64,000 nucleotides of DNA from Oleispira antarctica RB-8. GTDB taxonomy: Bacteria > Pseudomonadota > Gammaproteobacteria > Pseudomonadales > Oceanobacteraceae. Positions 9,286-34,305 of this stretch are shown piece by piece (the first letter of the stretch is position 1; each line of letters opens with the position of its first letter). The notes beneath the pieces are model-generated. The model did not search any database, was not told the DNA's origin, and worked only from the letters and a program-made list of their open reading frames with translations. The stretch covers positions 1,189,582-1,253,581 of the forward strand of contig FO203512.1 in NCBI GenBank assembly GCA_000967895.1, in the 5' to 3' direction. Position numbers and translations under genes: made by a program.

Positions 9286-9296
9286 GCTGAACGTCC

Positions 9297-15923: not shown

Positions 15924-16290
15924 AAATCACCTTTTATTTAATTTTTATTTAATTTTTGTACCACTATTAATCAACTTTCAATCACGCGATAGGCAGGAGT
16001 GTTCTTGAAAATCATAGAGCCTACTTTATGGTTTTTATATGGGTTGGTATATAGGGTAGTTATAAACTTATACGTTTTACTCAGCTTCAATACTTATGAG
16101 TAACGCCTGAATTTCAATCACTGGTTAGTACAGCTTAATACAACGCCCCGCATAATATTAAACAAAATCCAGTGACTACGTAGCAGCCACATTGGATTAA
16201 GTGTTTCCCATAATATCTAAGTACGAAGCAACCCCCTTACAATCGATTAGCGTTATTGCAACAGAGATTATCTTTATCGGAGTGTCGCCA
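15924..16290. other. Intergenic region carrying the eut promoter
   Basis: This 367-bp AT-rich region separates the divergent cytochrome b561 gene from eutS. It must hold the main eut promoter. The 34-bp motif shared with the SDR-ackA upstream region is at 16188-16221. An upstream in-frame extension of eutS starting at 16201 has no ribosome-binding site and is not conserved in EutS, so it is left out. Confidence 0.5.
16188..16221. promoter_or_regulatory. 34-bp motif shared between eutS and SDR-ackA promoters (copy 1)
   Basis: Starting CACATTGGATTAAGTGTTT, the site matches 34199-34232 at 27 of 34 positions. It lies about 70 bp upstream of the eutS start, a fitting place for an activator site or core promoter. 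Occurrence at both ends of the ethanolamine locus suggests a common regulator. Confidence 0.65.
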
Positions 16291-16653
16291 GTGAGTCAGT
16301 TTAGTAAAGACAGCTCGTCGGGTATTGAACGAATCATTCAGGAATATGTACCGGGCAAGCAGGTTACTCTGGCGCATTTATTGGCAAATCCTACTGAAGA
16401 GTTATGTCACAAAGTGGGAGTCGAGCATGCAGAAGCGATAGGCATTCTTACACTTACCCCAGGTGAGACAGCCATTATTGCAGGTGATGTCGCTACCAAA
16501 TTTGCGTCAGTAGAAATAGGTTTTTTAGATCGCTTTTCTGGAGCGCTGGTTGTGACAGGCTCGATTGGTGCTGTTGACGAAGCGTTAAGTTCGGTATTGG
16601 AAACACTAGAAACAGTATTGGGGTATCGCGTATGTCCAGCAACACGGACATAA
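16291..16653 (+). CDS. eutS: EutS, BMC-domain shell protein (bent hexamer type)
   Basis: With the GTG start at 16291 (GGAG 8 bp upstream) the product has 120 residues. After a short Ser-rich N-terminus it follows EutS closely: [25 protein letters not shown], then [22 protein letters not shown], then [23 protein letters not shown]. EutS is a circularly permuted BMC-H protein forming bent hexamers at shell edges. It is the first gene of the operon, as in enterobacteria, and overlaps eutP by 22 bp. Confidence 0.93.
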
Positions 16654-17114
16654 AATCGCCAACTGAATCGAAAGCCTTGGCAGATTTTGTCTTGGTCGGT
16701 GAGGTTGGTTGCGGCAAAACCGCTTTGATGAAGGCGTTGCTGCAAAGTGACGGCGAGGTGCGTAAAACCCAAGCCGCTGAATATCACGAACACAATGTCA
16801 TCGATACGCCAGGAGAGTTTATTGGTCGGCCTGCGTATTACGGTGCGTTACTGGCAACGGTTGTTGGGATTAGCACAATCGTCTATTTGCAGCCGGCTAA
16901 TAGTAACGCCTTTTCTATGCCTTCTGGGCTATTGCTGGTCTACCCCAATAAACGCGTTATTGGGGTAGTCAGTAAGACTGATCTACCGGATTCCGATTCG
17001 GTTAGAGCCTGCAAAATCATGCAGGAAAATGGCATTAAAGAGCCCTACTTTGCAACCTCCACGGTGACGAATGAAGGGATTGAACAACTCCGAAGTTACT
17101 TGATGAATTTGTAG
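16632..17114 (+). CDS. eutP: EutP/PduV-family small GTPase-like protein
   Basis: The 160-residue protein has a Walker A loop (GEVGCGKT, residues 23-30), the DTPGEF G3 motif and SKTDLPD, the G4 motif. This is the EutP/PduV layout. The family is Ras-like; some EutP proteins are reported to have acetate kinase activity, and PduV is linked to microcompartment positioning. It sits between eutS and eutQ, the standard order. Confidence 0.9.
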
Positions 17115-17164
17115 GCTTAATCATTGGGTTCAGATCATTACAGGGCCTTCAAAAGGGATGACGC

Positions 17165-17896
17165 ATGAAGACATTAATTACGGCCGAATATGTAAAAAAA
17201 CTGCACCGTGATGGTGAAGTTTCTCTGACAATGACGCCACAAAGCACGATCATAACGCCAGAAGCGCGTGATGTAGCTAAGTCTTTAGGCATTCAGATTA
17301 TCGATGCTGCGGTTAATATTGCCGCTAAACCGGTCGCTCACACTGCGGCGACAAATACAGCGACAAGTACCGCCGCTCTTGCTTCTAGAAATACAGATAA
17401 TACTGATCAGGCGCAGGCAATACGACGCGCTGTTGAAGCCAAACTTCCTGCGGGTAAACACGACTCGGCACTGCTCGAACAATTGGTGGCAAAGGCCATA
17501 CGTGAACTGCAAGGCACTGAAAGTGGCCCTTATTGCGAACGACAAGTATCTGATAATGGCATCGTATTAGTACGAGGTGGTTCGGTAAAATTCGGTCGTT
17601 TTGACGGCGCACCAGACCAACAAATTGGTTTAACTGACGTCATCGGCAGCAGCGATAAAAGTCCTATCGCCGCTGGTTTTATGCAGTGGGAAAAATCCAG
17701 TTTTCCTTGGACTCTAAATTATGACGAAATAGAAGTCATACTCGAAGGCGAGCTGCATATTACCTGCGGTGGAAAGACGTCGATTGGTAAGCCTGGCGAT
17801 GTGATGTTTGTGCCAAAGGGCTCCAGCATTGAATTTGGAACACCTACCAAAGTGCGTTTCGTTTATATCACCTACCCAGCGAATTGGGCGGATTAG
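17165..17896 (+). CDS. eutQ: EutQ, cupin-fold ethanolamine-utilisation protein
   Basis: This 243-residue protein has a basic N-terminal segment (LITAEYVKKLHRDGEVSL...ITPEARDVAKSLGIQII), an Ala/Thr-rich linker (about 55-80), and a C-terminal cupin barrel (about 130-243: YDEIEVILEGELHITCGG, KPGDVMFVPKGSSIEFG). EutQ is needed for microcompartment biogenesis during anaerobic growth and is reported to act as an acetate kinase. The ribosome-binding site AAGGGATGACGC precedes the ATG. The linker is longer than in enterobacterial EutQ. Confidence 0.92.
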   Translation: MKTLITAEYVKKLHRDGEVSLTMTPQSTIITPEARDVAKSLGIQIIDAAVNIAAKPVAHTAATNTATSTAALASRNTDNTDQAQAIRRAVEAKLPAGKHDSALLEQLVAKAIRELQGTESGPYCERQVSDNGIVLVRGGSVKFGRFDGAPDQQIGLTDVIGSSDKSPIAAGFMQWEKSSFPWTLNYDEIEVILEGELHITCGGKTSIGKPGDVMFVPKGSSIEFGTPTKVRFVYITYPANWAD

Positions 17897-17910
17897 TGGA
17901 CAATCTGAAC

Positions 17911-18789
17911 ATGCCTTCTTTTATCACCGAGTCGTGGTTACGGCAGGAATTTGGCTTGGGTCACGGCACAGAGATACACCTGCCTGCTCATTCTAAGTTG
18001 ACCCCTTCGGCGGCACAATTATTGGCCGAGCGAAAGATTCGTACTCGTTATATTGACGATGAAGGCCGGGTATATCTCTCTGAGGGTGGGTTGGGGTCGC
18101 AAGCACAATCACAGGCTCAAGCTCACTCACAAACTCATGCTCAACGTCAGACTGAGCAAAAAGTAACGCGTGTTCATCCACTCACAAGTGGTAATGCTCA
18201 ACCGGCAAATAATTGTGCGGTTTGCAGCAGTCACGTCGACAAAAAACCTGAATTATTAACACTGCTCGACGACAAAGAGCTGGTGCCTAAAACCCATCCG
18301 CGAATTCGTCTTCGAGGCAAACTCGATACCTTAATCGCACAAACCGTGTTTGTGCAAACACAGTTTGATCCCGCTAAAAAATACCCTTTATTGCACAAGT
18401 TGTTGGCAGATTTACGTTCATACATTGGCAATATATTGCGCTGCGAAGTGACGGGTGAAACCTTGTTACCGTTGGGTATGGGCAAGCTTGATGATGACGT
18501 TATTCACCGTATTTCACACCAACCACTCAAGTACTTAGGGCACGACCATATTTTACCAGAACAATGTCATGGCCCTAACGTCGCACAGTTAAATTTATTA
18601 CGGGCGTTGGTGCGTGAAGTAGAGCTAGAGGCATGCAGTACTTTTATTGATGATACGTACAAGCTTACTCGTGAAGACATCGTTCAAGGTTTAAATCGAC
18701 TCAGCAGTGCTTTCTATGTGCTCATGTTAATTACCTTGGTCAGCGAATCCGGCATCACAGTATCATTGGAAAAGGTCGCTTCCTTATGA
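17911..18789 (+). CDS. eutT: EutT, cobalamin adenosyltransferase
   Basis: From ATG 17911 (MPSFITESWLRQEFGLG), where EutT proteins begin, the product has 292 residues. EutT makes adenosylcobalamin for ethanolamine ammonia-lyase. The N-terminal domain has EIHLPAHSKLTPSAAQLLAE; the C-terminal adenosyltransferase domain has HPRIRLRGKLDTLIAQ, LRSYIGNILRCEVTGE and HDHILPEQCHGPNVAQLNLLRA (split). The metal motif known from Salmonella EutT, H-X11-CC-X2-C, is here His89-X11-Asn101-Cys102-X2-Cys105, so the first Cys is replaced. A Gln/His/Ala-rich linker (about 62-84) separates the domains. The stop overlaps the eutD start (ATGA). Confidence 0.9.
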   Translation: MPSFITESWLRQEFGLGHGTEIHLPAHSKLTPSAAQLLAERKIRTRYIDDEGRVYLSEGGLGSQAQSQAQAHSQTHAQRQTEQKVTRVHPLTSGNAQPANNCAVCSSHVDKKPELLTLLDDKELVPKTHPRIRLRGKLDTLIAQTVFVQTQFDPAKKYPLLHKLLADLRSYIGNILRCEVTGETLLPLGMGKLDDDVIHRISHQPLKYLGHDHILPEQCHGPNVAQLNLLRALVREVELEACSTFIDDTYKLTREDIVQGLNRLSSAFYVLMLITLVSESGITVSLEKVASL

Positions 18790-19766
18790 ATGTCGTGCAG
18801 CAATGTCGCACTGAGTGCAAACAGTCACCGCAGAGAATCGTTTTTGCCGATTCTCTGGATGTGCGCGTATTACAGGCTGCCAACGAATTACAGAAGCAGG
18901 GTTTAGCCGAGCCTATTCTAATAGGTAACCCTTTTGAAATACGCGACTATGCCTATCGTAACGGAATTGCGATGCCTTGTTTTGCTGTGGTCGACCCTGA
19001 ACGCTCGGGCTACCTTGAGCCGTTCGTTAATGCCTATCTTGAAAATAGTGATGCGAACACTGAGCGTGATAGTGCCGAAGCATTACTGCGCAAACCCCTT
19101 TTTTATGCAGCAATGATGGTTAAGCAAAACCAAGCTGACGTCTGTATTGCCGGTAATTTGTCGACCAGCGGTGATGTATTACGCGCTGCCTTAAAAGTGA
19201 TTGGCATTGCGGAACAACATAGAACGGTTTCTTCTTTTTTTGTGATGACGTCTCCCGATGGCTCCGACGTTCGCTTGTTTGCCGATGCGGCAGTCGTTCC
19301 TGAGCCAACGGTTGAACAGCTGGCTGACATTACGATTGATACTGCCCGTAATTTTGAAAAGCTCACAGGCGAGAAGGCTCGGGTTGCCATGTTGTCATTC
19401 TCGAGCAAAGGCAGTTCGAATCATCCAGCGGCGGTGCATGTGCGCGAAGCCTTTGATTTAGTACGTCGCAAATCTCCCGATCTTATTGTCGATGGTGAGC
19501 TGCAATTTGATGCTGCCGTTGATCCTATTGTTGCCGATCATAAAGCTCCGGACAGTCCCTTACACGGATCTTCAAATGTGATGATTTTTCCATCACTCAA
19601 TGCCGGAAATATTGCCTACAAAGTTGCTCAGCGCCTTGCTCATTACCAAGCGCTGGGGCCATTACTGCAAGGTTTACGAAAGCCCATGCACGATTTGTCG
19701 AGGGGATGCAGCGCCGACGATATTGTCGATATTGCGATTCTCGCGTCGTGCCTGGCAAAAAAATAA
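18786..19766 (+). CDS. eutD: EutD, phosphotransacetylase
   Basis: The 326-residue enzyme converts acetyl-CoA and phosphate to acetyl phosphate. It is a single-domain phosphotransacetylase, with RIVFADSLDVRVLQAA at the start, GNLSTSGDVLRAALKVIG, MLSFSSKGSS and VADHKAPDSPLHGSSNVMIFPSLNAGNIAYK (shortened), which contain the CoA and phosphate-binding residues. Length and placement between eutT and eutM are as in enterobacteria. Together with the convergent ackA it would yield ATP and acetate. The ATG overlaps the eutT stop. Confidence 0.93.
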   Translation: MNVVQQCRTECKQSPQRIVFADSLDVRVLQAANELQKQGLAEPILIGNPFEIRDYAYRNGIAMPCFAVVDPERSGYLEPFVNAYLENSDANTERDSAEALLRKPLFYAAMMVKQNQADVCIAGNLSTSGDVLRAALKVIGIAEQHRTVSSFFVMTSPDGSDVRLFADAAVVPEPTVEQLADITIDTARNFEKLTGEKARVAMLSFSSKGSSNHPAAVHVREAFDLVRRKSPDLIVDGELQFDAAVDPIVADHKAPDSPLHGSSNVMIFPSLNAGNIAYKVAQRLAHYQALGPLLQGLRKPMHDLSRGCSADDIVDIAILASCLAKK

Positions 19767-19789
19767 TACTTTCCTGAGGAGGAATAACA

Positions 19790-20089
19790 ATGAACGAAGC
19801 ACTAGGCATTATCGAAACAAAAGGTCTGACTGCGCTGATAGAAGCGTCCGATGCCATGGTTAAAGCGGCACGCGTTGAGCTGGTTGGTTACAAGCAAATT
19901 GGTAGCGGTTTGGTTACTGCATTTGTGCGTGGCGATGTGGCGGCTTGCAAAGCAGCAACTGACGCTGGGGCCGCGGCAGCACAGCGACTGGGTGAGCTAG
20001 TTGCGGTGCATGTAATACCAAGACCGCACGGTGATTTGGAATTGATTTTTCCGATTACGCCGAGTGGTAAATCGTCTGCTGACAGTTAG
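19790..20089 (+). CDS. eutM: EutM, hexameric BMC-H shell protein (canonical pore)
   Basis: The 99-residue BMC-H protein ([20 protein letters not shown]...) keeps the usual pore loop KQIGSGLV, with Ser at the pore-lining position. It would form flat hexamers tiling the shell faces. A strong ribosome-binding site (GAGGAGG) precedes it, in keeping with the high dosage of this main shell protein. It is followed after 38 bp by a second, very similar copy. Confidence 0.95.
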
Positions 20090-20127
20090 TCGGCGGCCGA
20101 AAATCAATTCATAAAGAGGACACTCCC

Positions 20128-20493
20128 ATGATGGAAGCGTTAGGCATTATTGAAACAAAAGGATTGACCGCATTAATTGAGGCGTCCGATGCCATGGTCA
20201 AGGCGGCCAGAGTTGAACTGGTGGGTTATCAACAGATTGGTCACGGTTATGTGTCTGCAATGGTAAGAGGCGATGTCGCAGCGTGTAAAGCTGCGACAGA
20301 TGCTGGTGCAGCAGCGGCGCAACGCTTAGGTGAAATCGTTTCTGTGCACGTAATTCCACGGCCGCATGGCGATTTGGAAGCGATATTTCCTCTCACCCCA
20401 AAGTCAGTCAGTACGAAGAGTGCTGACACCGAAAACAGTAATAACAATACCAACAGTGCCAAAAAAACCGTGGTGAAAAAGACCGCAGGTTAA
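20128..20493 (+). CDS. Second EutM-like BMC-H shell protein with His pore and Lys-rich tail
   Basis: The product is 121 residues. The first ~90 are nearly identical to the preceding EutM ([36 protein letters not shown]), so this is a tandem duplicate. Two features differ: the pore loop reads QIGHGYV, with His where EutM has Ser, and a 25-residue tail ([16 protein letters not shown] then TVVKKTAG) that is Asn/Ser- then Lys-rich follows the BMC domain. The His pore could change metabolite selectivity or bind metal; the tail could contact cargo or nucleic acid as EutK's C-terminal domain is thought to do. The start is an ATGATG after AAAGAGGACAC. Confidence 0.93.
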
Positions 20494-20511
20494 CAAATGG
20501 ATGGTTGAATT

Positions 20512-20814
20512 ATGAGGCTTGCAAAAGTCATAGGTCAGGTCGTTGCAACGATACGCAGCGATCGCTTGGGTATGGATAAGTTGTCGTTGATCAAGTTTAT
20601 CGATCAGTCGGGCGAGGAGGAATCTTCGGTAGCTGTGGCGGTTGATAGGCTGGGTGCTGGCGAAGGTGAATGGGTTCTCGTCGTGGGAGGGAGTTCCGCA
20701 CGCATGTCGATGGATAGCAGCGGTCAGGTCCCGATTGACCTTAGCGTGGTTGGCATTGTCGATGAAGTCACCAGCAATAATTCTTCTTGGTTTCATAAGA
20801 ATCAGCAGTACTAG
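20512..20814 (+). CDS. eutN: EutN, pentameric BMC vertex protein
   Basis: The 100-residue protein is of the BMC-P (EutN/CcmL) family: MRLAKVIGQVVATIRSD, the KLSLIKFIDQ strand, and GAGEGEWVLVVGGSSAR, ending in VPIDLSVVGIVDEV. BMC-P pentamers cap the shell vertices. It lies between the eutM pair and eutE as in the standard operon. Confidence 0.94.
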   Translation: MRLAKVIGQVVATIRSDRLGMDKLSLIKFIDQSGEEESSVAVAVDRLGAGEGEWVLVVGGSSARMSMDSSGQVPIDLSVVGIVDEVTSNNSSWFHKNQQY

Positions 20815-20826
20815 CGGAGGTATGGC

Positions 20827-22233
20827 ATGACACAACAGCATTTAGATTCACAGCAACTCGAAATGATCGTAAAGCGAGTGATTGAGCAGTTGCATGCACC
20901 TCAAAAAGACGGCGAGCGCTATGGCGTGTACCAAACCTTAGACGATGCCGTCGCCGCCGCGAAGATTGCTCAACCTCAAATTCGCAGTCTGGCCAAGCGT
21001 AACGCCATTATCGCTTCCATTCGTAAATTGGCGAGCGAACATATACAAGAACTGTCTGAGTTGGCGGTGCAAGAAACGGGATTTGGTCGAGTGAGTGACA
21101 AAATTCGCAAGAATCGCTTAGTCATCGACAGAACTCCTGGCACAGAGGTGCTCATTCCCATGGCCATCACGGGTGATCATGGTTTATCGCTGGTGGAAAA
21201 TGCGCCGTGGGGTGTTATCGCTTCGGTCACACCTTCTACCAATCCGTCGGCAACGATTATAAATAACAGTATCAGCATGATTGCAGCCGGAAATGCCGTT
21301 GTATTTTCGCCTCACCCAGCGGCAAAAGCCGTATCGCAACGCACGATTCAATTGGTCAATCAGGCATCGGTAAAAGCAGGCGGGCCTAACGGTATTGTCA
21401 CGTGCTTAGAGGTTCCCACTCTTGAAGCGGCAACGCAGTTATTTTCTTATCCGGGTATTCATCTATTGACCGTCACCGGAGGCGACGCAGTGGTATCGGC
21501 GGCGCGTAAAGTAACAGACAAGCGACTTATTGCCGCAGGTCCTGGTAATCCTCCTGTCGTAGTTGATGAAACCGCAGACATTGAGCGCGCTGCCATTAGC
21601 ATCGTGCAGGGCGCCTCTTTTGATAACAATATTGTGTGTGTAGACGAAAAAGAAATCATCGCCGTCGAGTCGATTGCTGATGCTTTAAAAGCTGCAATGG
21701 TGAGAAATGGTGCGGTAGAGATATCTGCACAACAGGCTGAGGCCGTTGCGCAACTGGTATTGCATGATTACCCAGGTCCAAAAGCAGCGCCTAAAAGTGA
21801 ATGGGTGGGGCGAGATGCGGCGAAGATTGCCGCCGCCGCAGGTTTTGAAGTGCCTGCTTCAACGCGTTTGCTGTTATTGGAAGCAGATTACGACCATGTT
21901 TTTGCTCGTACTGAAATGATGATGCCAGTGATTGCGATGAGCAGAGCCCGTGATTGCGATCAAGCAATTGATTGGGCGATTGAACTAGAGAATGACAATA
22001 AACACTCCGCCGCCATGCATTCGCGCAATATTGACAATCTATCGCGTATGGCAGAAGAAATTAATACCAGTTTATTCGTCAAAAATGGTCCTTGTATCGC
22101 AGGTTTAGGTGCTGGTGGTGAGGGGTGGGCGTCAATGACTATTTCCACACCCACTGGCGAGGGCGTTACCAATGCTGCAACGTTTGTACGCAAGCGTCGC
22201 TGCACCTTAGTAGACGCATTTCGGATTGTATAA
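20827..22233 (+). CDS. eutE: EutE, CoA-acylating acetaldehyde dehydrogenase
   Basis: The 468-residue enzyme oxidises acetaldehyde to acetyl-CoA with NAD+. It has the N-terminal amphipathic helix SQQLEMIVKRVIEQLHAP, a likely encapsulation peptide, joined by a short linker to the ALDH fold (VTPSTNPSATIINNSISMIAAGN, shortened; catalytic Cys in FDNNIVCVDEKE). C-terminal GLGAGGEGWASMTISTPTGEG is typical of EutE/PduP. The ribosome-binding site AGCGGAGG is strong. Confidence 0.95.
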   Translation: MTQQHLDSQQLEMIVKRVIEQLHAPQKDGERYGVYQTLDDAVAAAKIAQPQIRSLAKRNAIIASIRKLASEHIQELSELAVQETGFGRVSDKIRKNRLVIDRTPGTEVLIPMAITGDHGLSLVENAPWGVIASVTPSTNPSATIINNSISMIAAGNAVVFSPHPAAKAVSQRTIQLVNQASVKAGGPNGIVTCLEVPTLEAATQLFSYPGIHLLTVTGGDAVVSAARKVTDKRLIAAGPGNPPVVVDETADIERAAISIVQGASFDNNIVCVDEKEIIAVESIADALKAAMVRNGAVEISAQQAEAVAQLVLHDYPGPKAAPKSEWVGRDAAKIAAAAGFEVPASTRLLLLEADYDHVFARTEMMMPVIAMSRARDCDQAIDWAIELENDNKHSAAMHSRNIDNLSRMAEEINTSLFVKNGPCIAGLGAGGEGWASMTISTPTGEGVTNAATFVRKRRCTLVDAFRIV

Positions 22234-22242
22234 GGGGGATTT

Positions 22243-23088
22243 ATGAATAGCAGTATGACAGCCGTAAACGAATTATTGATAGAGGCTGCGACTATGGTTA
22301 ATGACGATAGTTTGGCGCCTTATCGTGGGTCATTTAAAGTGGGCATTGACTTGGGCACCGCTGATATTCAAACCGTTGTGCTGGATGAAAATAACCAGCC
22401 GTTGGCGTGTTATTTAGACTGGGCCGATGTCGTCCAAGATGGTGTTGTTGTGGATTATCACGGCGCTTGTCTGATTGTGAAAGACCAATTGCGTCGCGCT
22501 AACGAACGCTTGGGTATCGATATTGAACAGGCAACGACCTCGTTTCCCCCGGGCACAGACCCTCGAATCTCGATTAACGTGGTTGAATCTGCTGGCATTG
22601 AAGTGGCCGGTGTTATTGATGAACCCAGCAGCGTTGCCACGTTGTTGAAATTACAGAACGCCGCGGTGGTGGATATTGGGGGTGGCACTACTGGCACCGC
22701 TATTATCGAAAATGGCCAGGTCGTCAAATCAGTCGACGATCCTACTGGGGGGCACCATATTACGCTGACCCTGGCAGGTCATCACCACATGTCCTATGAA
22801 GACGCCGAACTATTGAAGCGCAGTGATACGTCCGGCGAAGTGTTGTCGATCGTGAAACCCGTGATTGCGAAAATGGCCGACCTAGTAAAGCAGCATATTG
22901 CTGAGCACGCCCCACCTGCGATATACCTCACTGGCGGTTGTTGTGCATTACAGGGTTTTGCCAAGGTCTTTGCGGCTGAATTTCAGGATGTAGAGGTCAT
23001 ATTTCCCACGCAGCCGTTGTATTTAACGCCGTTGGCCATTGCCGCGTTTGGTGCTACCGAAAGCGTGCGCCAGCAACGGGCTGGTTAG
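22243..23088 (+). CDS. eutJ: EutJ, Hsp70-like ATPase of the eut microcompartment
   Basis: The 281-residue protein has the actin/Hsp70 ATPase folds: FKVGIDLGTADIQTVVLDE (phosphate 1), AAVVDIGGGTTGTAI (phosphate 2) and IYLTGGCCALQGFAKVF (adenosine). EutJ is a putative chaperone in ethanolamine operons; its client is not established. It is located between eutE and eutG, the enterobacterial order. Confidence 0.92.
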   Translation: MNSSMTAVNELLIEAATMVNDDSLAPYRGSFKVGIDLGTADIQTVVLDENNQPLACYLDWADVVQDGVVVDYHGACLIVKDQLRRANERLGIDIEQATTSFPPGTDPRISINVVESAGIEVAGVIDEPSSVATLLKLQNAAVVDIGGGTTGTAIIENGQVVKSVDDPTGGHHITLTLAGHHHMSYEDAELLKRSDTSGEVLSIVKPVIAKMADLVKQHIAEHAPPAIYLTGGCCALQGFAKVFAAEFQDVEVIFPTQPLYLTPLAIAAFGATESVRQQRAG

Positions 23089-23089
23089 C

Positions 23090-24331: not shown

Positions 24332-24362
24332 CGATCGGCATTAATTCACTGGAGAAAAGAGC

Positions 24363-25649: not shown

Positions 25650-27069
25650 AACGGTGCACAGCGTAGGTATTGATATTGGTACCACAACGACTCAAGTCAT
25701 ATTTTCACAATTGACGATGGTTAATCGTGCGCCCGTCACGCAGGTGCCACGGTATGAATTTGTGGAGCGCAATATTTGCTTTCAAAGCCCCGTTAGTCGC
25801 ACGCCCCTGACGGATGACGGCTTGGTTGATATCGATCGTTTACAAGCATTCATTGATGCTCAGTTTGTCGCGGCCGAACTGACGCTAGAAGACATAGAAA
25901 CAGGGGCCATTATTATTACGGGTGAATCCTCCAAGGCGATCAATGCACGCGACGCCATTATGGGATTGGCTGATCGCTTGGGTGATTTTGTTGTCGCCAC
26001 CGCTGGGCCTAATTTGGAATCGGTTATCGCAGGGCGCGGTAGCGGCGCTGGGGAATACTCCAAGGCGCACCACGCCCGAGTGCTCAACATCGATATTGGT
26101 GGTGGTACGAGCAATTACGTGGTGTTTGAAAGCGGTAATGTGGTGGATACGGCTTGCCTGAATGTAGGGGGGCATTTACTTGAAACCGATACTCAGGGCG
26201 GTGTGATAAAAATACACAAACCCGCCCGTCTTGTTATTGCCGAATTGTTTGGCGATCACGTCGATGCAGCGCAGCTCGATCATGACCGCGTTAAAAAAGT
26301 CGTCAATCGCATGGCTGAATTAATTGTGGAATGCATCAGTGCTACGCCTTCGACGCTATGCAATCAACTGATGATGACTCCTGCACTTCAGGGAGATAAA
26401 GGCTTTGATGTGATCTTTCTTAGCGGGGGCGTAGGTGACTGTTATTACCAACTGCGCGACGCTGAGCTTGATGCGTTTAAATGGCAAGATATCGGCGTGT
26501 TGTTAGCCGGCGCGTTATTAAAAAATTCTCAGTTAGGGGCCTATACGGTTAAGCAACCATCACAAACTTTGCAAGCCACCGTGATCGGTGCAGGTGCCTA
26601 TTCGCTGTCGCTGTCGGGGGCTTCAATTTGGTTAAATACCGACGAGCTTCCGGTGCGAAATATTCCCGTGGTGCAACCCAATATAGATTGGCAGCAAGCT
26701 GAACCTAATGTTTGCGAACACATAATCAGCGCTGGCAAGCGTATGGATTTACGCTTGGGCGAAGACCGCTACGCCATCGCCTTTGATAACCGTATGCCGG
26801 TTAATTATAAATCGGTCAGTCACACGGCGCAGCAGCTAGCCACCTATTTTCTGCAACATGGTAATAAGCGTGATCCCGCAATTGTGATAACGCAAAACGA
26901 TTTAGGCAAAGTCCTCGGCATGGAATTACAACCGTTAATTGACCCGCAACAATTGCTGGTGATTGACGAAGTACGTGCTCGCGAAGGCGATTTTATCGAT
27001 ATTGGTCAGAGTTTTTTTGACGGCGACGTAGTGCCGCTAACCATCAAGTCACTGGCATTCCCGGCATAG
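25639..27069 (+). CDS. eutA: EutA, reactivating factor for ethanolamine ammonia-lyase
   Basis: This 476-residue protein of the actin-like ATPase superfamily begins with SVGIDIGTTTTQVIFSQL and has VLNIDIGGGTSNYVVFESG and VIFLSGGVGDCYY. EutA exchanges damaged cobalamin on EutBC for free adenosylcobalamin using ATP. It immediately precedes eutB, with its start inside the eutH 3' end, indicating translational coupling. Confidence 0.94.
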   Translation: MSRKTVHSVGIDIGTTTTQVIFSQLTMVNRAPVTQVPRYEFVERNICFQSPVSRTPLTDDGLVDIDRLQAFIDAQFVAAELTLEDIETGAIIITGESSKAINARDAIMGLADRLGDFVVATAGPNLESVIAGRGSGAGEYSKAHHARVLNIDIGGGTSNYVVFESGNVVDTACLNVGGHLLETDTQGGVIKIHKPARLVIAELFGDHVDAAQLDHDRVKKVVNRMAELIVECISATPSTLCNQLMMTPALQGDKGFDVIFLSGGVGDCYYQLRDAELDAFKWQDIGVLLAGALLKNSQLGAYTVKQPSQTLQATVIGAGAYSLSLSGASIWLNTDELPVRNIPVVQPNIDWQQAEPNVCEHIISAGKRMDLRLGEDRYAIAFDNRMPVNYKSVSHTAQQLATYFLQHGNKRDPAIVITQNDLGKVLGMELQPLIDPQQLLVIDEVRAREGDFIDIGQSFFDGDVVPLTIKSLAFPA

Positions 27070-27084
27070 GACAAGGAGATTTTT

Positions 27085-28446
27085 ATGAGATTAAAAACGA
27101 CATTATTTGGGAAGGTCTACCAGTTTCGTGACGTGAAAGACGTCTTGGCCAAAGCCAACGAACTGCGTTCTGGAGATGTGCTGGCAGGCATTGCCGCAGA
27201 AACGGCGCAGCAAAGGGTTGCCGCCAAGCAAGTACTTGGCGATATGAGTCTGCAAACGCTACGGGAAAACCCTATTGTTCCATATGAGATAGACGCGATT
27301 ACCCGTGTGATTCAAGACGCGGTCAATACCTCTGTGTACGACGAGATCAAGAACTGGACCGTCAGTGAACTGCGTGAATATATCTTGGGTGATGGCCCGA
27401 CGCATGAAGACTATGAACGTTTACGCAAAGGCCTCACATCAGAGATGGTTGCTGCCGTGTGTAAAATTTGTTCAAACGCCGACTTAATGGTTGGGGCAAA
27501 AAAGTTGTACGTGATATCAAAAGCCAATTGTACCTTGGGTATTCCAGGCCGTTTTTCTTCGCGCTTACAACCGAACGATACCCGTGATGATATTGACAGT
27601 ATTATTACGCAGACTTACGAAGGTCTTTCTTATGGCTGCGGTGATGCTGTTATTGGTGTTAATCCCGTTACCGAGTCGGTCGAAAATACCCGCCGTATTC
27701 TTGATGCCCTGAAAGAAGTTACCGACAAATGGAATATTCCGACCCAGAGTTGTGTGCTAGCGCATGTGACCAATCAGATGGCGGCGATTGAAAAGGGCGC
27801 ACCTGGTGGACTGATTTTCCAAAGTTTATCGGGCACCGAAAAAGGCCTAAATGAGTTTGGGGTGACGGTTAAAATGCTCGACGAAGCCTACGACCTTGGC
27901 AAGCACTACTGCAATCTCGCCGGCGACAATATGATGTATTTCGAGACAGGGCAAGGTTCGGCGTTGTCGGCGAATGCGCATTATGGCGCTGACCAAGTGA
28001 CCGTTGAAGCGCGTAATTATGGTCTTGCTAAGCGCTACAATCCTCACTTGCTCAATACGGTGGTTGGTTTTATCGGCCCTGAGTATCTGTTCAACCATCA
28101 ACAAATTACCCGTGCCGCATTAGAAGATCATTTTATGGGCAAGCTCACGGGCATCCCTATGGGATGTGATGCTTGCTATACCAATCATGCTGATACCGAC
28201 CAAAATTCGAATGAAAATCTGAACGTATTGCTCGCGGCGGCAGGTTGTAATTATGTGATGTCATTGCCATTGGGTGACGACATTATGCTGAATTACCAAA
28301 CAACGAGTTATCACGACGTTGCGACTGCGCGACGCTTGCTGGGCTATCGACCTGCTCCAGAATTTGAAGCGTGGATGGAAACGATGGGCTTGATGGAAAA
28401 CGGTGAATTGACGGCCCGCGCGGGCGATCCTTCCATATTTTTTTGA
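27085..28446 (+). CDS. eutB: EutB, ethanolamine ammonia-lyase large subunit
   Basis: The 453-residue TIM-barrel subunit holds the active site that, with adenosylcobalamin, converts ethanolamine to acetaldehyde and ammonia. It is highly typical in length and sequence (KTTLFGKVYQFRDVKDVLAK, LGIPGRFSSRLQPNDTRDD, YFETGQGSALSANAHYGADQ, MGCDACYTNHADTDQNSNEN). The ribosome-binding site is AAGGAGA. eutC follows after 15 bp. Confidence 0.97.
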   Translation: MRLKTTLFGKVYQFRDVKDVLAKANELRSGDVLAGIAAETAQQRVAAKQVLGDMSLQTLRENPIVPYEIDAITRVIQDAVNTSVYDEIKNWTVSELREYILGDGPTHEDYERLRKGLTSEMVAAVCKICSNADLMVGAKKLYVISKANCTLGIPGRFSSRLQPNDTRDDIDSIITQTYEGLSYGCGDAVIGVNPVTESVENTRRILDALKEVTDKWNIPTQSCVLAHVTNQMAAIEKGAPGGLIFQSLSGTEKGLNEFGVTVKMLDEAYDLGKHYCNLAGDNMMYFETGQGSALSANAHYGADQVTVEARNYGLAKRYNPHLLNTVVGFIGPEYLFNHQQITRAALEDHFMGKLTGIPMGCDACYTNHADTDQNSNENLNVLLAAAGCNYVMSLPLGDDIMLNYQTTSYHDVATARRLLGYRPAPEFEAWMETMGLMENGELTARAGDPSIFF

Positions 28447-28461
28447 TTAAAGGTGATAACC

Positions 28462-29403
28462 ATGGATGAGCAAAGTATTCAAAGTATCGTGAAGTCGGTG
28501 CTACGCGAACTGGGTGAGACTAATCTTCCAGAGGGCAAAATCATGACGATAAAGCCTGATGAAACCGACAGTGCGCCTGCCGCGTTGTCTGCTGAAAAAA
28601 TAAATACCGATGCGAACGCACAAACAGAGACAGACAGTAAAGAGAGTCTGGAAGACCTGAGTCTGGATAAATTTATCCGCTGGAATGGCATTCGCAATGC
28701 CCATAACGCAAGTATTAACGACGACATGATCAGCCAAACAGGAGCGCGTGTTTGTCAGGGTAGGGCGGGTCCGCGACCACGTACTATTTCTTTATTACGT
28801 TTTCTTGCCGACCATTCGCGCTCCAAGGATACCGTGATTAAAGAGATCGATTCTGAGTGGTTGGTCGAACGTAATTTGTTGGAAGTGACGTCACGCTCAA
28901 GTGATAAAAGTGAGTATCTGACTCGCCCTGATTTAGGCCGACAGCTGTCTGATGAGGGTAAAAAACTCGTACTGGAAAAGTGCAAAAAGTCCCCACAGGT
29001 ACAAGTCATTATTTCTGATGGTTTGAGCACCGACGCCGTCACCAGTAATTACGATGAAATTCTGCCACCGTTATTGAAGGGGCTAGAAAATGCAGGCTTC
29101 GATGTAGGCACTCCGTTCTTTCTGCGTTACGGACGTGTTAAAGCACAGGATGAAGTTGGTTATATGTTGCAAGCAGAGGTGAATTTGTTGTTGATCGGCG
29201 AACGCCCTGGGCTTGGACAATCTGAAAGCCTGAGTTGTTACTGCGTTTATAAACCAAGCCCAGAGACGGTGGAGTCAGATCGCATGGTGATTTCCAATAT
29301 CCATAAGTCGGGCACTCCTCCGGTCGAGGCGGCCGCGGTTATTGTTGATCTTACCAAAAAAATGCTGGAGCAAAAGGCCAGCGGACTCAATTTGAAACGC
29401 TAA
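28462..29403 (+). CDS. eutC: EutC, ethanolamine ammonia-lyase small subunit
   Basis: From ATG 28462, which has AAAGGTGA in front (a GTG at 28453 is part of that site), the product has 313 residues. The N-terminal helix DEQSIQSIVKSVLRELGE is a typical encapsulation and lyase-targeting peptide. A Thr/Asp/Glu-rich linker (about 25-65) precedes the cobalamin-binding domain (DKFIRWNGIRNAHNASIND, ARVCQGRAGPRPRT, VIISDGLSTDAV, LLIGERPGLGQSESLSCY). It is somewhat longer than enterobacterial EutC (about 295) because of the linker. Confidence 0.96.
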   Translation: MDEQSIQSIVKSVLRELGETNLPEGKIMTIKPDETDSAPAALSAEKINTDANAQTETDSKESLEDLSLDKFIRWNGIRNAHNASINDDMISQTGARVCQGRAGPRPRTISLLRFLADHSRSKDTVIKEIDSEWLVERNLLEVTSRSSDKSEYLTRPDLGRQLSDEGKKLVLEKCKKSPQVQVIISDGLSTDAVTSNYDEILPPLLKGLENAGFDVGTPFFLRYGRVKAQDEVGYMLQAEVNLLLIGERPGLGQSESLSCYCVYKPSPETVESDRMVISNIHKSGTPPVEAAAVIVDLTKKMLEQKASGLNLKR

Positions 29404-29451
29404 GTCCATGCGGAAAATATCACGCGTAGACAACTATAAAGGACAAGTAAT

Positions 29452-30108
29452 ATGAGTGTATTAGACGAACTTAAAGCATCGGTACTTGCAACTCGGGTCA
29501 TCGCTTCGGTAGACCAAGGCATGATAGAGCTATTTAAACTGAATAAAGACCAGCGTTGCATAGGCATACTGACGGCCGATTGTGATGACGTGACCTATGT
29601 CGCGATTGATGAAGCCACGAAAGCGGCTAATGTCGACGTCGTATACGCCCGTTCTTTTTATGCGGGTGCGGCGCATTCTTCGGGGCCTTTATCGGGTGAA
29701 GTTATTGCTATTTTAGCAGGGCCAGGACCTGCGGATGTACGCGCTGGCTTGCAACGCGCGCGGGAGGTTATCGAGCATGAAGCGGCATTTAAGTCGGCCA
29801 ATGAAGATGGCAGTCTGGCGTTTTTCGCACATTTAGTCTCTGCAACAGGCAGTTACCTTTCTAAAGAAGGGGGGATCGCACGAGGCGAGGCGATGGCCTA
29901 CCTGATTGCGCCGCCATTGGAAGCCATGTTTGGCATGGACGCTGCGTTAAAAGCGGCCGATGTGAAAGTGGCTACGTTCTTTGCCCCACCTTCTGAAACA
30001 AACTATGGCGGCGGTTACCTAACAGGTTCCCAAGCGGCTTGCAGCGCAGCCTGTGATGCTTTTCAGCAAGCTGTACTTGATGTGGCAGGCATGCCCATTG
30101 ATATCTAA
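29452..30108 (+). CDS. eutL: EutL, trimeric tandem-BMC shell protein
   Basis: The 218-residue protein has two fused BMC domains (about 1-105 and 110-218) and matches EutL: VLATRVIASVDQGMIELF, YARSFYAGAAHSSGPLSGEV, and the end PPSETNYGGGYLTGSQAACSAACDAF (shortened). EutL trimers have a gated central pore and bind ethanolamine. In E. coli eutK and eutR follow; here a PduS-like gene follows after 33 bp. Confidence 0.95.
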   Translation: MSVLDELKASVLATRVIASVDQGMIELFKLNKDQRCIGILTADCDDVTYVAIDEATKAANVDVVYARSFYAGAAHSSGPLSGEVIAILAGPGPADVRAGLQRAREVIEHEAAFKSANEDGSLAFFAHLVSATGSYLSKEGGIARGEAMAYLIAPPLEAMFGMDAALKAADVKVATFFAPPSETNYGGGYLTGSQAACSAACDAFQQAVLDVAGMPIDI

Positions 30109-30141
30109 TAGATTGATCGCCAACGGTAAGGAAATAACGCT

Positions 30142-31476
30142 ATGAGCGCTCTGGTGGAACAAGTAAGACAAGCCGGTGTCGTCGGTGCGGGTGGCGCTGG
30201 ATTTCCTTGCTATGCAAAAATTACTTCAGCCGCCGATGTGCTGATCGCCAACGGTGCGGAATGCGAGCCTCTTTTGAACAAAGACCAGCTTGTCATGCAA
30301 CATTTTACCGAATACATGCTTGAAGGCATGCAACTGCTGATGCAGCAGATCGGCGCGAGTCGAGGTGTGCTGGCTATTAAGCAAAAACATCAAGATTCGA
30401 TTGCGCATCTTGAGCCTTTGTTGCCTGCCAATATCGAGTTGAAAATCATGCCTAACGTGTATCCCGCGGGGGATGAATACGAGTTGGTTTACGAGGTGAC
30501 GGGCAAAAGAATTCCTGCTGGTGGGTTACCAAAAGATGTCGGGGTGTTGGTACAAAATGTCGAAACCTTGGTCAATGTGTATCACGCCGCTCAAGGTAAA
30601 CCCGTGACCCATACGATGTTAACGGTGCACGGTGAAGTCGAACGGCCGTTTACCGCTTGGCTTCCCATTGGTATGTCTTATGCCAATGTGATTGCGCTTG
30701 CGGGCGCAATAACCTGCGAGTCACCGGTGATCGTAGAGGGCGGCATGATGATGGGAAGCATCGAATATGATTTTTCCACACCGATAACGGCAACGACTAG
30801 CGGTTTGCTGGTATTACCACAAGATTCTCATGTTGTGGTCAAAAAAACAGAACCCGAGCATGTCTCTAAGCGCATCGCTAAGGCGGCTTGCGATCAATGC
30901 ACCTTGTGTACCGAGATGTGCCCACGTTATTTACTCGGCTACCCCGTTCAACCCCACTTGGTGATGCGTGCCTTATTAACGACGGATGAGATTAGCGAAA
31001 CGCTATCACTGCATGCGCAGGCGTGTTGCGAATGCAATGTGTGTACGTTGTGGGCTTGCCCCGAACAATTGAATCCAAGCGATGTGTGCGCAGCGACTAA
31101 GCGCGACTTAAAGGTTCATGGTTTGTGGCAATCTGCCGAGCAATTGCAGGCCCAGACTCGGCCAGTACACAGTATGCGCGAATATCGGGGTGTACCCACT
31201 TCACGACTGACCAGACGCCTTGGTTTAGCACAATACGATCGCAAGTCAGCCCCGTGGTTAGATATCAGCGAACCGCCAGAGCATGTTGCGATTTCCTTGC
31301 GCTCGCGCATGGGATCTAGCCCTGTTTCCATCGTCAATATTGGCGACCAAGTTATGGTGGGTGATGTTATTGCCGAAGTGTCCGGCGATGCCTTGGGAGT
31401 GCCAGTGCATGCAAGTATCAGCGGTACCGTGTGCGCGATTGGTGAGCGAATAGAAATTCAACGGAATAAGGTTTAA
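30142..31476 (+). CDS. PduS-like corrinoid reductase (RnfC/SLBB family, two 4Fe-4S clusters)
   Basis: This 444-residue protein has the RnfC N-terminal FMN/NAD-binding layout (GVVGAGGAGFPCYAKI, LIANGAECEPLLNKDQ, NVYPAGDEYELVYEVTG), an SLBB beta-grasp segment (about 150-215), and two 4Fe-4S motifs, CDQCTLCTEMCPRY (about 251) and CCECNVCTLWACPEQ (about 295). A C-terminal biotinyl-like barrel follows. This is PduS, which reduces cob(III)alamin to cob(I)alamin for the adenosyltransferase in propanediol microcompartments. In an eut operon it could serve EutT, or move electrons across the shell with the next gene's product. Standard eut operons lack it. Confidence 0.9.
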   Translation: MSALVEQVRQAGVVGAGGAGFPCYAKITSAADVLIANGAECEPLLNKDQLVMQHFTEYMLEGMQLLMQQIGASRGVLAIKQKHQDSIAHLEPLLPANIELKIMPNVYPAGDEYELVYEVTGKRIPAGGLPKDVGVLVQNVETLVNVYHAAQGKPVTHTMLTVHGEVERPFTAWLPIGMSYANVIALAGAITCESPVIVEGGMMMGSIEYDFSTPITATTSGLLVLPQDSHVVVKKTEPEHVSKRIAKAACDQCTLCTEMCPRYLLGYPVQPHLVMRALLTTDEISETLSLHAQACCECNVCTLWACPEQLNPSDVCAATKRDLKVHGLWQSAEQLQAQTRPVHSMREYRGVPTSRLTRRLGLAQYDRKSAPWLDISEPPEHVAISLRSRMGSSPVSIVNIGDQVMVGDVIAEVSGDALGVPVHASISGTVCAIGERIEIQRNKV

Positions 31477-31479
31477 CAA

Positions 31480-32034
31480 ATGAGAAATGGAAGTGCGATT
31501 GGCATGATCGAGATGAACTCGATTGCTAAGGGTTATGCCGTGGGTGACGCTATGTTGAAAGCGGCTAACGTTGAAATATTGTTTAACCGAACGATTTGTC
31601 CTGGCAAATTTATGGTGATGGTATCAGGTGATATCGCGGCCGTTGAAGCCGCTATGGACGCTGGCTTGGGCTTGGGCCATGAGACGGTTGTTGATGAGCT
31701 GATTATTCCTAATGTGCATACCTCGGTATTTGCTGCGATAAGCGGCACTCGTGTGATAGAGCAAACTGCGGCGCTGGGTATTATCGAAACCTTTTCAGTG
31801 GCCTCTATTATCGAAGCGGCCGACGCAGCTGTTAAAGCGGCCAATATTGAGTTGATTGATATTCATCTGGCGATGGCGATTGGCGGCAAGGGCTACGCGA
31901 CAATGACGGGGGATGTTGCTTCCGTTACCGCAGCGGTTGAGGCCGGTATTGCTTATATCAAAGACAAGGGTGTCATCGTAGATTACGTTGTTATTCCCCA
32001 GCCCAGAGAAGAGATCTTGCGCGACAAAGTATAA
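31480..32034 (+). CDS. PduT-like tandem-BMC shell trimer with pore Fe-S cysteine
   Basis: The 184-residue protein has two BMC domains (about 5-90 and 97-180: GMIEMNSIAKGYAVGDAMLK and GIIETFSVASIIEAADAAV). The loop NRTICPGKFMVMVSGD puts Cys40 where PduT has Cys38, the residue that holds a 4Fe-4S cluster in the trimer's central pore. It follows the PduS-like gene by 3 bp, the pairing expected if the reductase passes electrons through the shell. The 3' end and the following 45 bp consist of four 15-bp repeats. Confidence 0.92.
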   Translation: MRNGSAIGMIEMNSIAKGYAVGDAMLKAANVEILFNRTICPGKFMVMVSGDIAAVEAAMDAGLGLGHETVVDELIIPNVHTSVFAAISGTRVIEQTAALGIIETFSVASIIEAADAAVKAANIELIDIHLAMAIGGKGYATMTGDVASVTAAVEAGIAYIKDKGVIVDYVVIPQPREEILRDKV

Positions 32035-32080
32035 AGCGACAAAGTATAGGGCGAAGAAATATAGGGTGAAGAAATATAGT
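32021..32080. repeat. Four tandem 15-bp repeats across the pduT-like stop codon
   Basis: Units GCGACAAAGTATAAA, GCGACAAAGTATAGG, GCGAAGAAATATAGG and GTGAAGAAATATAGT follow one another from 32021 to 32080. As 15 is a multiple of three, each unit carries an in-frame stop: R/S-D-K-V-stop twice, then G-E-E-I-stop twice. They fill most of the gap to the convergent ackA gene, where no terminator hairpin was found. Confidence 0.93.
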
Positions 32081-32101
32081 GCAGGCTAAATGGAAATGGA
32101 C

Positions 32102-33289
32102 TTAACTGAGTAATCTCTGAGTATGTCGTGCAATCATCCACTCTTCTTTGGTGGGGATTGCCCATACCGTTACAGGGCTGTCGCCTGCGCTAATGCACAA
32201 AGAATGTCTTTCATTATGATAAGCATCGACTCTAATTCCAGCCCAGCCAGCCAGCTTGCAAACTCGGCTGCGAATAGCGGCACAGTGCTCGCCAATTCCG
32301 GCGGTGAAAACCAGAGCATCCAAACCTCCTAAAATGGCCGTCAGTGCGCCCAGTTCCCGATTAATCCGATATACATAAAAATCAATGGCTTCGCGTGCTT
32401 GCTCGGCATCGCTTTCAAGTAGCGTTTGCATGTCACCGCTGATGCCTGATAAACCCAAAAGCCCAGACTGTTTATACAGCAGCTCGGTAATGTCTTCATT
32501 GCTCATGTGGAGCACCTCTAACAAGTATAAAATAACCCCAGGGTCCAGGTCGCCGCAGCGTGTTGCCATTGGTAGTCCATCCAGTGCTGTAAAACCCATC
32601 GTCGTTGCGACACTGCGGCCTCCTTGCATGGCGCACATACTGGCACCATTACCCAAATGTGCGACGATGACGTTTGCCGATGCGGCGTCTTTACCGATGA
32701 GGTTAGGTAAACACTCGGCCATGTATTCGTAAGAGAGCCCATGAAAACCGTATCGTTTCACCCCTTGTTCATAAAGCGGTTGTGGCAAAGCGAACTGTCT
32801 AGCGACTTTAGGTAACGTGCTATGGAATGAGGTATCGAAGCATGCAACTTGAGGAACATTTGGCATAAGCTCTGCCAGAATACGAATGGCGGCTACGTTG
32901 TGCGATTCATGCAAAGGGGCGAGTGCATCGAGAGTATCGAGGTGTTCCAGAACCTGTTCTGTTATGCGTACCGGCGCGTCGTATAGGCCACCCCCATGAA
33001 CGACTCTATGGCCGATGGCAACGATGTCTCTTGCAGTCTGTGTGTGGGTTCCCACACTCAAACCCCAATCAAGAAGGGCCGACATAGCTTGTGCATGATT
33101 GCTGCCATTTATGAGGCGCTTGTCAATAATTGAAACGCCGTTAGCATCAAATACTTGTAATCTGGGTATCGCACCAATAGCCACTATTTCGCCGGTTTTT
33201 ATCACCGTCAATGTATGATCAATACTGCCATACAATCCAAATTTGATACTGGAAGAACCGCAGTTAATTACTAAAATTTTGCCACTCAT
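32102..33289 (-). CDS. ackA: Acetate kinase
   Basis: With the start at ATG 33289 (MSGKILVINCGSSSIKFGLY) the product has 395 residues, typical for AckA; an ATG six codons upstream is also possible. Motifs: NCGSSSIKF (phosphate 1), GHRVVHGG, ACFDTSFHSTLP, YGFHGLSYEY, AHLGNGASMCA and FTAGIGEHCAAIR. It makes ATP and acetate from acetyl phosphate supplied by EutD. It is convergent with the eut operon and 42 bp downstream of an SDR gene, whose promoter shares a motif with eutS. Confidence 0.95.
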   Translation of the reverse strand: MSGKILVINCGSSSIKFGLYGSIDHTLTVIKTGEIVAIGAIPRLQVFDANGVSIIDKRLINGSNHAQAMSALLDWGLSVGTHTQTARDIVAIGHRVVHGGGLYDAPVRITEQVLEHLDTLDALAPLHESHNVAAIRILAELMPNVPQVACFDTSFHSTLPKVARQFALPQPLYEQGVKRYGFHGLSYEYMAECLPNLIGKDAASANVIVAHLGNGASMCAMQGGRSVATTMGFTALDGLPMATRCGDLDPGVILYLLEVLHMSNEDITELLYKQSGLLGLSGISGDMQTLLESDAEQAREAIDFYVYRINRELGALTAILGGLDALVFTAGIGEHCAAIRSRVCKLAGWAGIRVDAYHNERHSLCISAGDSPVTVWAIPTKEEWMIARHTQRLLS

Positions 33290-33349
33290 CTGCAGTTCAC
33301 CAGCCATATCCTCTATAGAAACTCAGCCCAGCTATTTATTGGCAGTCGT

Positions 33350-34123
33350 TTATTGGCAAGTGTAGCCGCCATCGATCACCAATTCCGTGCCGGTTACAAA
33401 TTTTGATTCATCGGATGCGAGATACAATATTCCAGAAGCAATATCATCAGGTGCGCCAACATGGCCAATTGGGTGCAGGCTATCAAGCTTCGCCTTGAAT
33501 GCCTCAGAACCTTCTGGTGAATCTGCGGCAAGGGCTGCAACTAATGGTGTCCAGATGAAACCTGGGTGTACAGAGTTGACCCGGATATTGTCTTTTGCAT
33601 AGATGAGCGCATCGTTCTTACTCATCAATCGAACAGCCCCTTTGGATGCATGGTAGGGCGGTAAATCAGCAGCTCCGACAAGGCCGTAGATGGAAGATAA
33701 GTTGATAATACTGCCTGAGGAAGCTTTCTTTAGATAGGGAATGGCGTACTTGGTACACAGAAAAACACCGGTAACGTTGATGTTCATGACCGCTTCCCAC
33801 TCTTGTTTGGTTATCTCATGGGTTGGTTTGTTTGCTCCGGCGATGCCGGCGTTATTGACTAAGATATCGATCGAGCCAAACTCGCTGAAGACCTTAGCAA
33901 AAACATCCTTCACATTGTCTTCGTCAGCAGTATTAAGATGCCAATATTGCGCCACACCACCGGCGGTAATTATTTCATCTCTTAAGTTCATGCCTGCTTC
34001 ATCATTGATGTCTGTGATGGCGACTTTAGCGCCTTCTTTAGCGAGTAATAGGGCGGTTGCTCCTCCTATTCCTAGTGCGGCACCGGTGATTACTGCGACT
34101 TTACCTTCGACTCTTTTCATCAT
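33350..34123 (-). CDS. Short-chain dehydrogenase/reductase (classical SDR)
   Basis: The start at 34123 (ATGATGAAAAGAGTC) has AGAGGGA in front and gives 257 residues; an upstream ATG at 34144 is less likely. The classical SDR fold shows TGAALGIGGA (NAD(P) binding), NNAGIAG, SSIYG and the catalytic YHASK. It resembles cyclic-alcohol and 3-oxoacyl reductases. It heads a two-gene operon with ackA, and the eutS-like motif lies upstream, so it may handle an alcohol or aldehyde formed in ethanolamine metabolism; this is inference. Confidence 0.85.
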   Translation of the reverse strand: MMKRVEGKVAVITGAALGIGGATALLLAKEGAKVAITDINDEAGMNLRDEIITAGGVAQYWHLNTADEDNVKDVFAKVFSEFGSIDILVNNAGIAGANKPTHEITKQEWEAVMNINVTGVFLCTKYAIPYLKKASSGSIINLSSIYGLVGAADLPPYHASKGAVRLMSKNDALIYAKDNIRVNSVHPGFIWTPLVAALAADSPEGSEAFKAKLDSLHPIGHVGAPDDIASGILYLASDESKFVTGTELVIDGGYTCQ

Positions 34124-34198
34124 AATTCCCTCTATAAACACCAATGGTTAGAAGGTTAGAATAGAGGGAATAGGGTTCACGGTGATATCCGTTATGGG

Positions 34199-34232
34199 CA
34201 CATTGAACTAAGTGTTTTCCACAATAGCTCTG
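34199..34232. promoter_or_regulatory. 34-bp motif shared with the eutS promoter (copy 2)
   Basis: Starting CACATTGAACTAAGTGTTT, this site matches 16188-16221 at 27 of 34 positions. It lies 76 bp upstream of the SDR-ackA operon on one side and 74 bp upstream of the APH/kinase gene on the other, so it could serve either. It reads in the same direction as the APH/kinase gene. Confidence 0.65.
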
Positions 34233-34305
34233 ATTTTTTTGTCCCGTAAAATTAAGATAAATAATCATTCAAACGCGCAGTATCAAAAATCAGGGAGTGT
34301 TTGCA

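Follow-up and report, generated by a model that had tools for sequence, protein, structure and literature searches.

A motif pair at the ethanolamine (eut) locus of Oleispira antarctica RB-8 as a predicted operator for a neighboring FixJ-type regulator

Introduction

Three regulators of ethanolamine operons, EutR, EutV, and EatR, are described in the available part of a 2018 review (PMC5821096; here and below, statements on cited papers refer to the portions of their text that were available). Each provides dedicated regulation of an ethanolamine operon: EutR is an AraC-type protein, EutV (of EutVW) an RNA-binding ANTAR antiterminator, and EatR a sigma-54 enhancer protein; as they are described in that part of the review, a DNA-binding response regulator of the FixJ type is not among them. 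Here, we describe a 34-bp motif that occurs twice in a 64-kb stretch of DNA (the window) of the 4.4-Mb genome of O. antarctica RB-8, once upstream of eutS, with which a long eut operon begins (site A), and once in a divergent intergenic region (site B), between a leftward operon encoding an SDR family oxidoreductase and an acetate kinase (SDR-ackA) and a rightward gene for a protein with APH-like and AAA_33 kinase parts (AAA-kinase). Literature searches, which covered open-licence papers only, turned up no account of eut genes controlled by a FixJ-type regulator.

In the rhizobial FixLJ system, fixK and nifA are the targets. The FixJ site of Sinorhizobium (S.) meliloti is TAAGTAATTTCCCTTA, systematic evolution of ligands by exponential enrichment (SELEX) gave the forms GTAGTTTCCC and GTAMGTAG, FixJ footprints at fixK extend from −69 to −31, and the FixJ-to-fixK arrangement is a known layout (PMC4999443); the FixJ element at fixK of R. 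palustris is GTACGTAG (PMC13327599). In the gammaproteobacterium Shewanella, ThsSR (Shal_3128/9) senses thiosulfate, and its FixJ-like regulator controls a neighboring operon via the element TATGTGGTTTACCACAAT (PMC5408782). Like the rhizobial systems, the O. antarctica locus has a FixJ-type regulator gene beside the gene for a FixL-like kinase, and sites with a TAAGT..TTTCC core. It differs from them in its proposed targets, which are eut and the AAA-kinase gene, and in its kinase, which contains a CHASE domain and has no heme histidine at the FixL position.

Results

Sites A and B are identical at 27 of 34 positions, as the first-pass annotation of the window had claimed and as direct reading and a recount bore out. 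The same number is the best ungapped 34-mer match between the two intergenic regions, compared with a mean of 20.7 and a maximum of 24 for 300 Markov-shuffled pairs. When a degenerate 28-bp core of the motif, CACATTGRAYTAAGTGTTTYCCAYAATA, was used as query and up to three mismatches were allowed, two matches were obtained in the window (none in 100 shuffles) and only sites A and B in the whole genome (none in the backwards control); the motif was found in none of 141 relatives, a 27-bp form of it not once in viral contigs, and no Rfam family matched within the window at the gathering threshold. An interspersed repeat, with copies scattered away from promoters, is ruled out by the presence of only two copies in the genome. 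With a shorter 17-bp core and up to three mismatches, 56 matches were obtained, vs 79 in the backwards control, and no larger regulon is visible. Five of the 54 weaker matches were viewed in the context of their open reading frames (ORFs): four lie inside ORFs (L141, L143, L149, and L168, the last before the second ackA of the genome), and one (L142) lies between ORFs, its nearer start being 225 bp off. The similarity of sites A and B stops near the edges of the operator (its core is termed O2; Table 1), and the flanks are unrelated. Judged by their sequence, the two form a genuine pair of putative regulatory sites, unique in the genome.

To place the motif among known operators, published FixJ and ThsR sites were scored against 9138 34-mers of the window (the fractions given include 34-mers overlapping sites A and B). 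Aligned with the S. meliloti FixJ site, the score of site A was reached by 0.27% of these 34-mers and that of site B by 1.8%; for the 18-bp Shewanella ThsR element, the values were 0.88% and 0.16%, respectively, and for the SELEX form GTAGTTTCCC, 0.8% of the 34-mers reached the score of site A. The core of FixJ-family operators, TAAGT/TACGTA..TTTCC, is present, with site A nearer the FixJ forms and site B nearer the ThsR form. The likeness is not complete: the best alignment of the S. meliloti site with site A requires a one-base gap, and while GTTTNCCACAAT of the ThsSR system matches the right part of site B, the left part and the spacing are off by one base.

The position of the sites relative to the genes is also similar. 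Measured from the motif end, the start codons of eutS and of the AAA-kinase gene follow after 69 and 73 bp, respectively, in the same orientation, and the distance from O2 to the −10-like sequence is 23 bp at the former and 21 bp at the latter. The start codon of SDR-ackA lies in reverse orientation, 78 bp from the 5′ edge of the motif in site B. Thus, the distance of 70–76 bp that the first-pass annotation had given for eutS and SDR-ackA holds, by and large, for eutS and the AAA-kinase gene and fails for SDR-ackA; its proposal of one regulator for both promoters is still the best reading, except that site B fits the AAA-kinase gene no worse than it fits SDR-ackA, which might share the site in reverse.

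At eutS, a related element (O1) may extend upstream of the motif start as reported, to position 16176. With a search matrix that included boxes from members of the same order (see below) and was trained without the upstream element, O1 ranks fourth among all positions of the 64-kb window. Its palindrome CTACGTAG resembles the FixJ forms GTAMGTAG (SELEX class) and GTACGTAG, and it is spaced from O2 by 21 bp, which is two helical turns. The presumed start of eutS transcription puts O1 and O2 together at about −74 to −36, compared with −69 to −31 as published for FixJ at fixK (PMC4999443). The upstream box at eutS may have its right half in the CACATTG with which the motif opens, but site B retains this stretch as well. 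A tandem operator at site B was considered and is unsupported, the O1 position there having a matrix score of −3.2 (rank 1689 in the window). As a side observation, CTACGTAG is part of an 8-bp stem (16172–16190) that was flagged by a terminator scan on the minus strand but may instead be the dyad of an operator.

Table 1. Features of the eut locus and its flanking module (window positions). The suffix "-like" in the eut operon entry marks genes that matched a broader family or scored under the family cut-off.
Feature	Position	Strand	Remarks
Motif copy A	16188–16221	+	Upstream of eutS
Motif copy B	34199–34232	+	Divergent intergenic region
Core operator O2, copy A	16197–16214	+	TTAAGTGTTTCCCATAAT; aligns with FixJ and ThsR operators
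Core operator O2, copy B	34208–34225	+	CTAAGTGTTTTCCACAAT; 15/17 aligned bases, one gap, to ThsR operator; 15/18 ungapped to L044 box
Possible upstream operator O1, copy A	16176–16193	+	CTACGTAGCAGCCACATT, containing palindrome CTACGTAG; 21 bp from O2
CACATT common to copies A and B	34199–34204	+	Full 18-bp O1 position (34187–34204) has no recognizable box
−10-like TACAAT, eutS	16238–16243	+	23 bp past O2; consensus match only
−10-like TAAAAT, AAA-kinase gene	34247–34252	+	21 bp past O2; AATAAT 34 bp past O2 scores equal
−10-like TATTCT, SDR-ackA	34158–34163	−	4/6 consensus
eut operon: eutS, eutP-like, eutQ, eutT, eutD-like, two eutM, eutN-like, eutE-like, eutJ, eutG-like, eutH, eutA-like, eutB, eutC, eutL, RnfC-like, PduT-like	16291–32034	+	GTG start at 16291
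Acetate/propionate kinase family gene (ackA)	32102–33307	−	
SDR family oxidoreductase gene	33350–34120	−	Opens leftward operon; ATG at 34120
APH-like and AAA_33 kinase gene (AAA-kinase)	34306–35898	+	ATG at 34306
FixJ-type response regulator gene	35881–36501	−	Proposed binder; helix ISERTVEVHRS
CHASE-PAS-PAS histidine kinase gene	36512–38887	−	FixL-like, without heme-ligand His and nearby Arg

The candidate binder is encoded next to the AAA-kinase gene, with which its gene is convergent. In NCBIfam, it matches FixJ best (227.7 bits, under the equivalog cut-off of 255), and its first PDB match is StyR, followed by FixJ; the next best FixJ match in the genome (E 4e-17) covers the receiver part only. 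The adjoining kinase contains a CHASE domain (PF03924, E 5.6e-11) and PAS domains. In FixL, a histidine of the PAS domain is the heme ligand and an arginine lies nearby. Because these two positions are Gly and Cys, respectively, when the kinase is aligned with FixL structures, heme oxygen sensing is disfavored, and the protein, FixL-like in sequence, is probably not a heme oxygen sensor. As query against genome contigs, the kinase yielded 53 loci with a best-segment identity of 24–48%; among plasmids, 197 records matched it, with identity below 60% throughout and coverage of the kinase never exceeding 80%, and 31 matched eutS, at an identity of at most 66.7% among the matches listed (8).

Within the order, the 36 loci with FixJ homologues at the top of the homologue list (45–56% identity) were searched with a matrix for which sites A and B were the sole input. 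The top match was CTACGTAGTTTCCACAAT in L044, and further boxes were CTACGTAGTTTCCACAGT in L039 and CTAGGTAGTTACCGCAAT in L045; they start 80, 136, and 132 bp, respectively, upstream of an FNR/CRP-type ORF beside fixJ. When 3000 stretches of 250 bp were drawn at random from these loci, scores of this height occurred in 0.4% (L044), 1.3% (L039), and 2.7% (L045). This pattern is exploratory, having been noted after the ranking was known. The helix stretch ISERTVEVHR is common to the FixJ proteins of L044 and L039 and to the window protein, and SPRTIEIYR is found in L062 and L063. The pairs of fixJ and FNR/CRP-type gene with box occupy positions 7827–9197 (L039), 8031–9413 (L044), and 7157–8125 (L045), and are perhaps a gammaproteobacterial counterpart of the FixJ-fixK relay; in L039 and L044, a gene for a universal stress protein also adjoins. 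The module flanking eut in O. antarctica did not recur beside these FixJ homologues: at E 1e-10, none of the 36 loci had an ackA or AAA-kinase match, and there was one weak SDR match.

The eut cassette appears foreign to the host genome. The eut genes and SDR-ackA (16001–34000) have a GC content of 46–51%, vs 36–45% elsewhere in the window, and eutS was found in none of five congeners; the same five have no full-length counterpart of the FixJ-type regulator (best E 6e-18) or of the AAA-kinase gene (one partial match). Long eut operons are sporadic in the order, with eutS in nine of 390 genomes. The motif was absent from all eight other eutS upstream regions of the order (400 bp each; best score 8.5 vs 39.5, whereas 300 shuffles of one sequence reached 16.7), five of which (G097, G569, G626, G542, and G717) are weaker tests in that eutS is maybe not first in the transcript there. 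The idea that the motif is a general property of eut loci was rejected on this count. In G630, the same eut cassette (57–94% identity) lies between a tRNA-Lys gene and nadA (L178 88–17468), with no SDR, ackA, AAA-kinase, or FixLJ match in the 60 kb read. These data fit a motif that is present only where FixLJ genes adjoin eut, a pattern that, with a single positive case, proves little. The G630 cassette has no regulator gene adjoining, and a second tRNA-Lys copy is apparent by eye just before the tRNA-Lys gene; its setting suggests a tRNA-site insertion. The RnfC-like and PduT-like genes that end the O. antarctica operon (30142–32034) are paired likewise in G630, G073, G097, and G573, perhaps for electron transfer across the shell.

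A EutR-like gene is located ∼320 kb from the long eut locus, divergent from a short eutBC-eat locus. Absence of eutR, as assumed in the first-pass annotation, thus holds at the long locus but not for the genome. The short locus comprises eutBC, an ethanolamine permease gene, and the divergent EutR-like AraC gene (G000:C1:886426–891471; L199 9427–14472). Together with the long operon, it gives the Oleispira genome one eut locus of each type, long and short, which the available text of PMC11101070 describes as unique to K. pneumoniae.

SDR-ackA had also been proposed to supply the acetate kinase that eut requires. It is not the sole source: the genome contains a second ackA, with a higher-scoring acetate kinase match than the one in the window, and EutQ, named acetate kinase by NCBIfam, is above the family cut-off (the EutP-like protein is below it). 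Because of this second ackA and EutQ, the metabolic tie from eut to SDR-ackA is loose. A functional tie of acetate kinase to eut is nonetheless plausible because acetate-kinase-like genes adjoin eut in three members of the order, before eutS in G097 and G569 (under the family cut-off or by tblastn only) and after EutR in G573 (above the cut-off). These genes are found at L048 2408–3541, L180 7314–8294, and L200 18602–19831.

Discussion

From the two sites, their uniqueness, their resemblance to known operators, and their geometry, we infer, with slightly better than even confidence, that the FixJ-type regulator uses the motif as its operator, to activate eutS and the AAA-kinase gene. This protein, already named as a candidate by the first-pass annotation, is favored by the operator resemblance, the FixJ-linked boxes in three members of the order, and the promoter geometry. 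At eutS, O2, perhaps together with O1, would lie just upstream of a −10-like sequence lacking a good −35, and RNA polymerase would be recruited by a dimer of the phosphorylated regulator centered at about −44. The AAA-kinase gene would be activated likewise from site B, the opposite face of which might also serve SDR-ackA. The signal would be periplasmic, sensed by the membrane-bound CHASE-PAS-PAS kinase, which would phosphorylate the regulator, and the latter would turn on the flanking genes along with ethanolamine catabolism.

Several results weigh against assigning the motif to the FixJ-type regulator. Across the 36 FixJ-homologue loci, there was no global enrichment (mean best score 8.75 vs 8.06 in the reversed control; maxima 16.0 vs 14.9); the L045 box, at 10.8, is barely above the reversed control in the same stretch (9.8); and the box is present in only three of the five loci with an FNR-type gene near fixJ, L062 and L063 being without it. 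A strict textbook FixJ box was found in none of the 53 loci fetched with the kinase, which are mostly from Rhizobiales, and site B is a poor match to the SELEX form GTAGTTTCCC, with 31% of the window 34-mers scoring as well. No box is seen between the kinase gene and the adjoining LysR-type gene (best score 4.7) and, hence, no autoregulation. The O1 position at site B scores as given above, and O1 at eutS is equaled or outscored by nine positions of a reversed-matrix control, so that its support is mainly positional. A sigma-70 scan gave no promoter at the proposed −10 sequences of eutS and the AAA-kinase gene; this fits activator-dependent promoters without a −35, and equally chance. Finally, no close relatives of the kinase-regulator pair, through which co-inheritance might be followed, were present among the genome contigs and plasmids searched.

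That both sites are instead bound by the EutR-like AraC-family protein of the short locus, which would then control the flanking genes jointly with the long and the short eut locus, is unlikely. The protein is there (41% identity to Escherichia coli EutR, residues 34–346; NF007522, 238.8 bits vs a cut-off of 319), CACATT and CAYAAT recur 21 bp apart in the motif, and AraC-type half-sites often recur at such spacing. A direct-repeat site would also explain why the CACATT half is common to both sites though site B has no full O1, and EutR is described to bind just upstream of the −35 at eut P1 (PMC5821096). However, the divergent eutBC-eat promoter of the EutR-like gene itself is without the motif (best core score 8.0), of which the genome has only the two copies, as is the upstream region of E. 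coli eutS (best core score 4.8), and these absences argue against binding by EutR, as does the resemblance of the core to FixJ operators.

Some other regulator, such as the LysR-type protein encoded at 39074 or one encoded outside the window, is a rather poor candidate. The LysR-type gene adjoins the kinase gene, and sites of LysR proteins are often imperfect palindromes; these proteins usually bind their own upstream region, which here lacks a core-like box (best score 4.7). Were a global regulator involved, sites beyond these two should exist, and the counts for the 17-bp core (56 vs 79 in the control) do not reveal them. Improbable, too, is that the copies are duplicated scraps of a promoter left from the assembly of the region, with no shared regulator today: the foreign look of the eut cassette and the lack of full-length FixJ-type and AAA-kinase counterparts in the congeners would suit this, but the similarity ends near the operator edges amid unrelated flanks, as selection on a site would give, and position and −10-like spacing are kept.

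If the FixJ-type regulator is the binder, the locus would represent, as a tentative and rather doubtful extension, a fourth type of eut control. In it, a signal from outside the cell, perhaps ethanolamine itself, would be sensed by a membrane CHASE-PAS kinase and a FixJ-type regulator, and these would drive a microcompartment operon gained by horizontal transfer via FixJ operators before eutS, while a separate EutR-like protein would run the short eutBC-eat locus. How a new host wires an incoming eut cassette into its control is worth knowing, and the present case suggests that a neighboring two-component module was recruited, with operators upstream both of eutS and of the genes flanking the module itself. 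If this is true, the regulon would consist of two sites and be small enough for complete testing, and a DNA-binding two-component route would join the three eut controls, EutR, EutV, and EatR, described in the available part of the 2018 review (PMC5821096).

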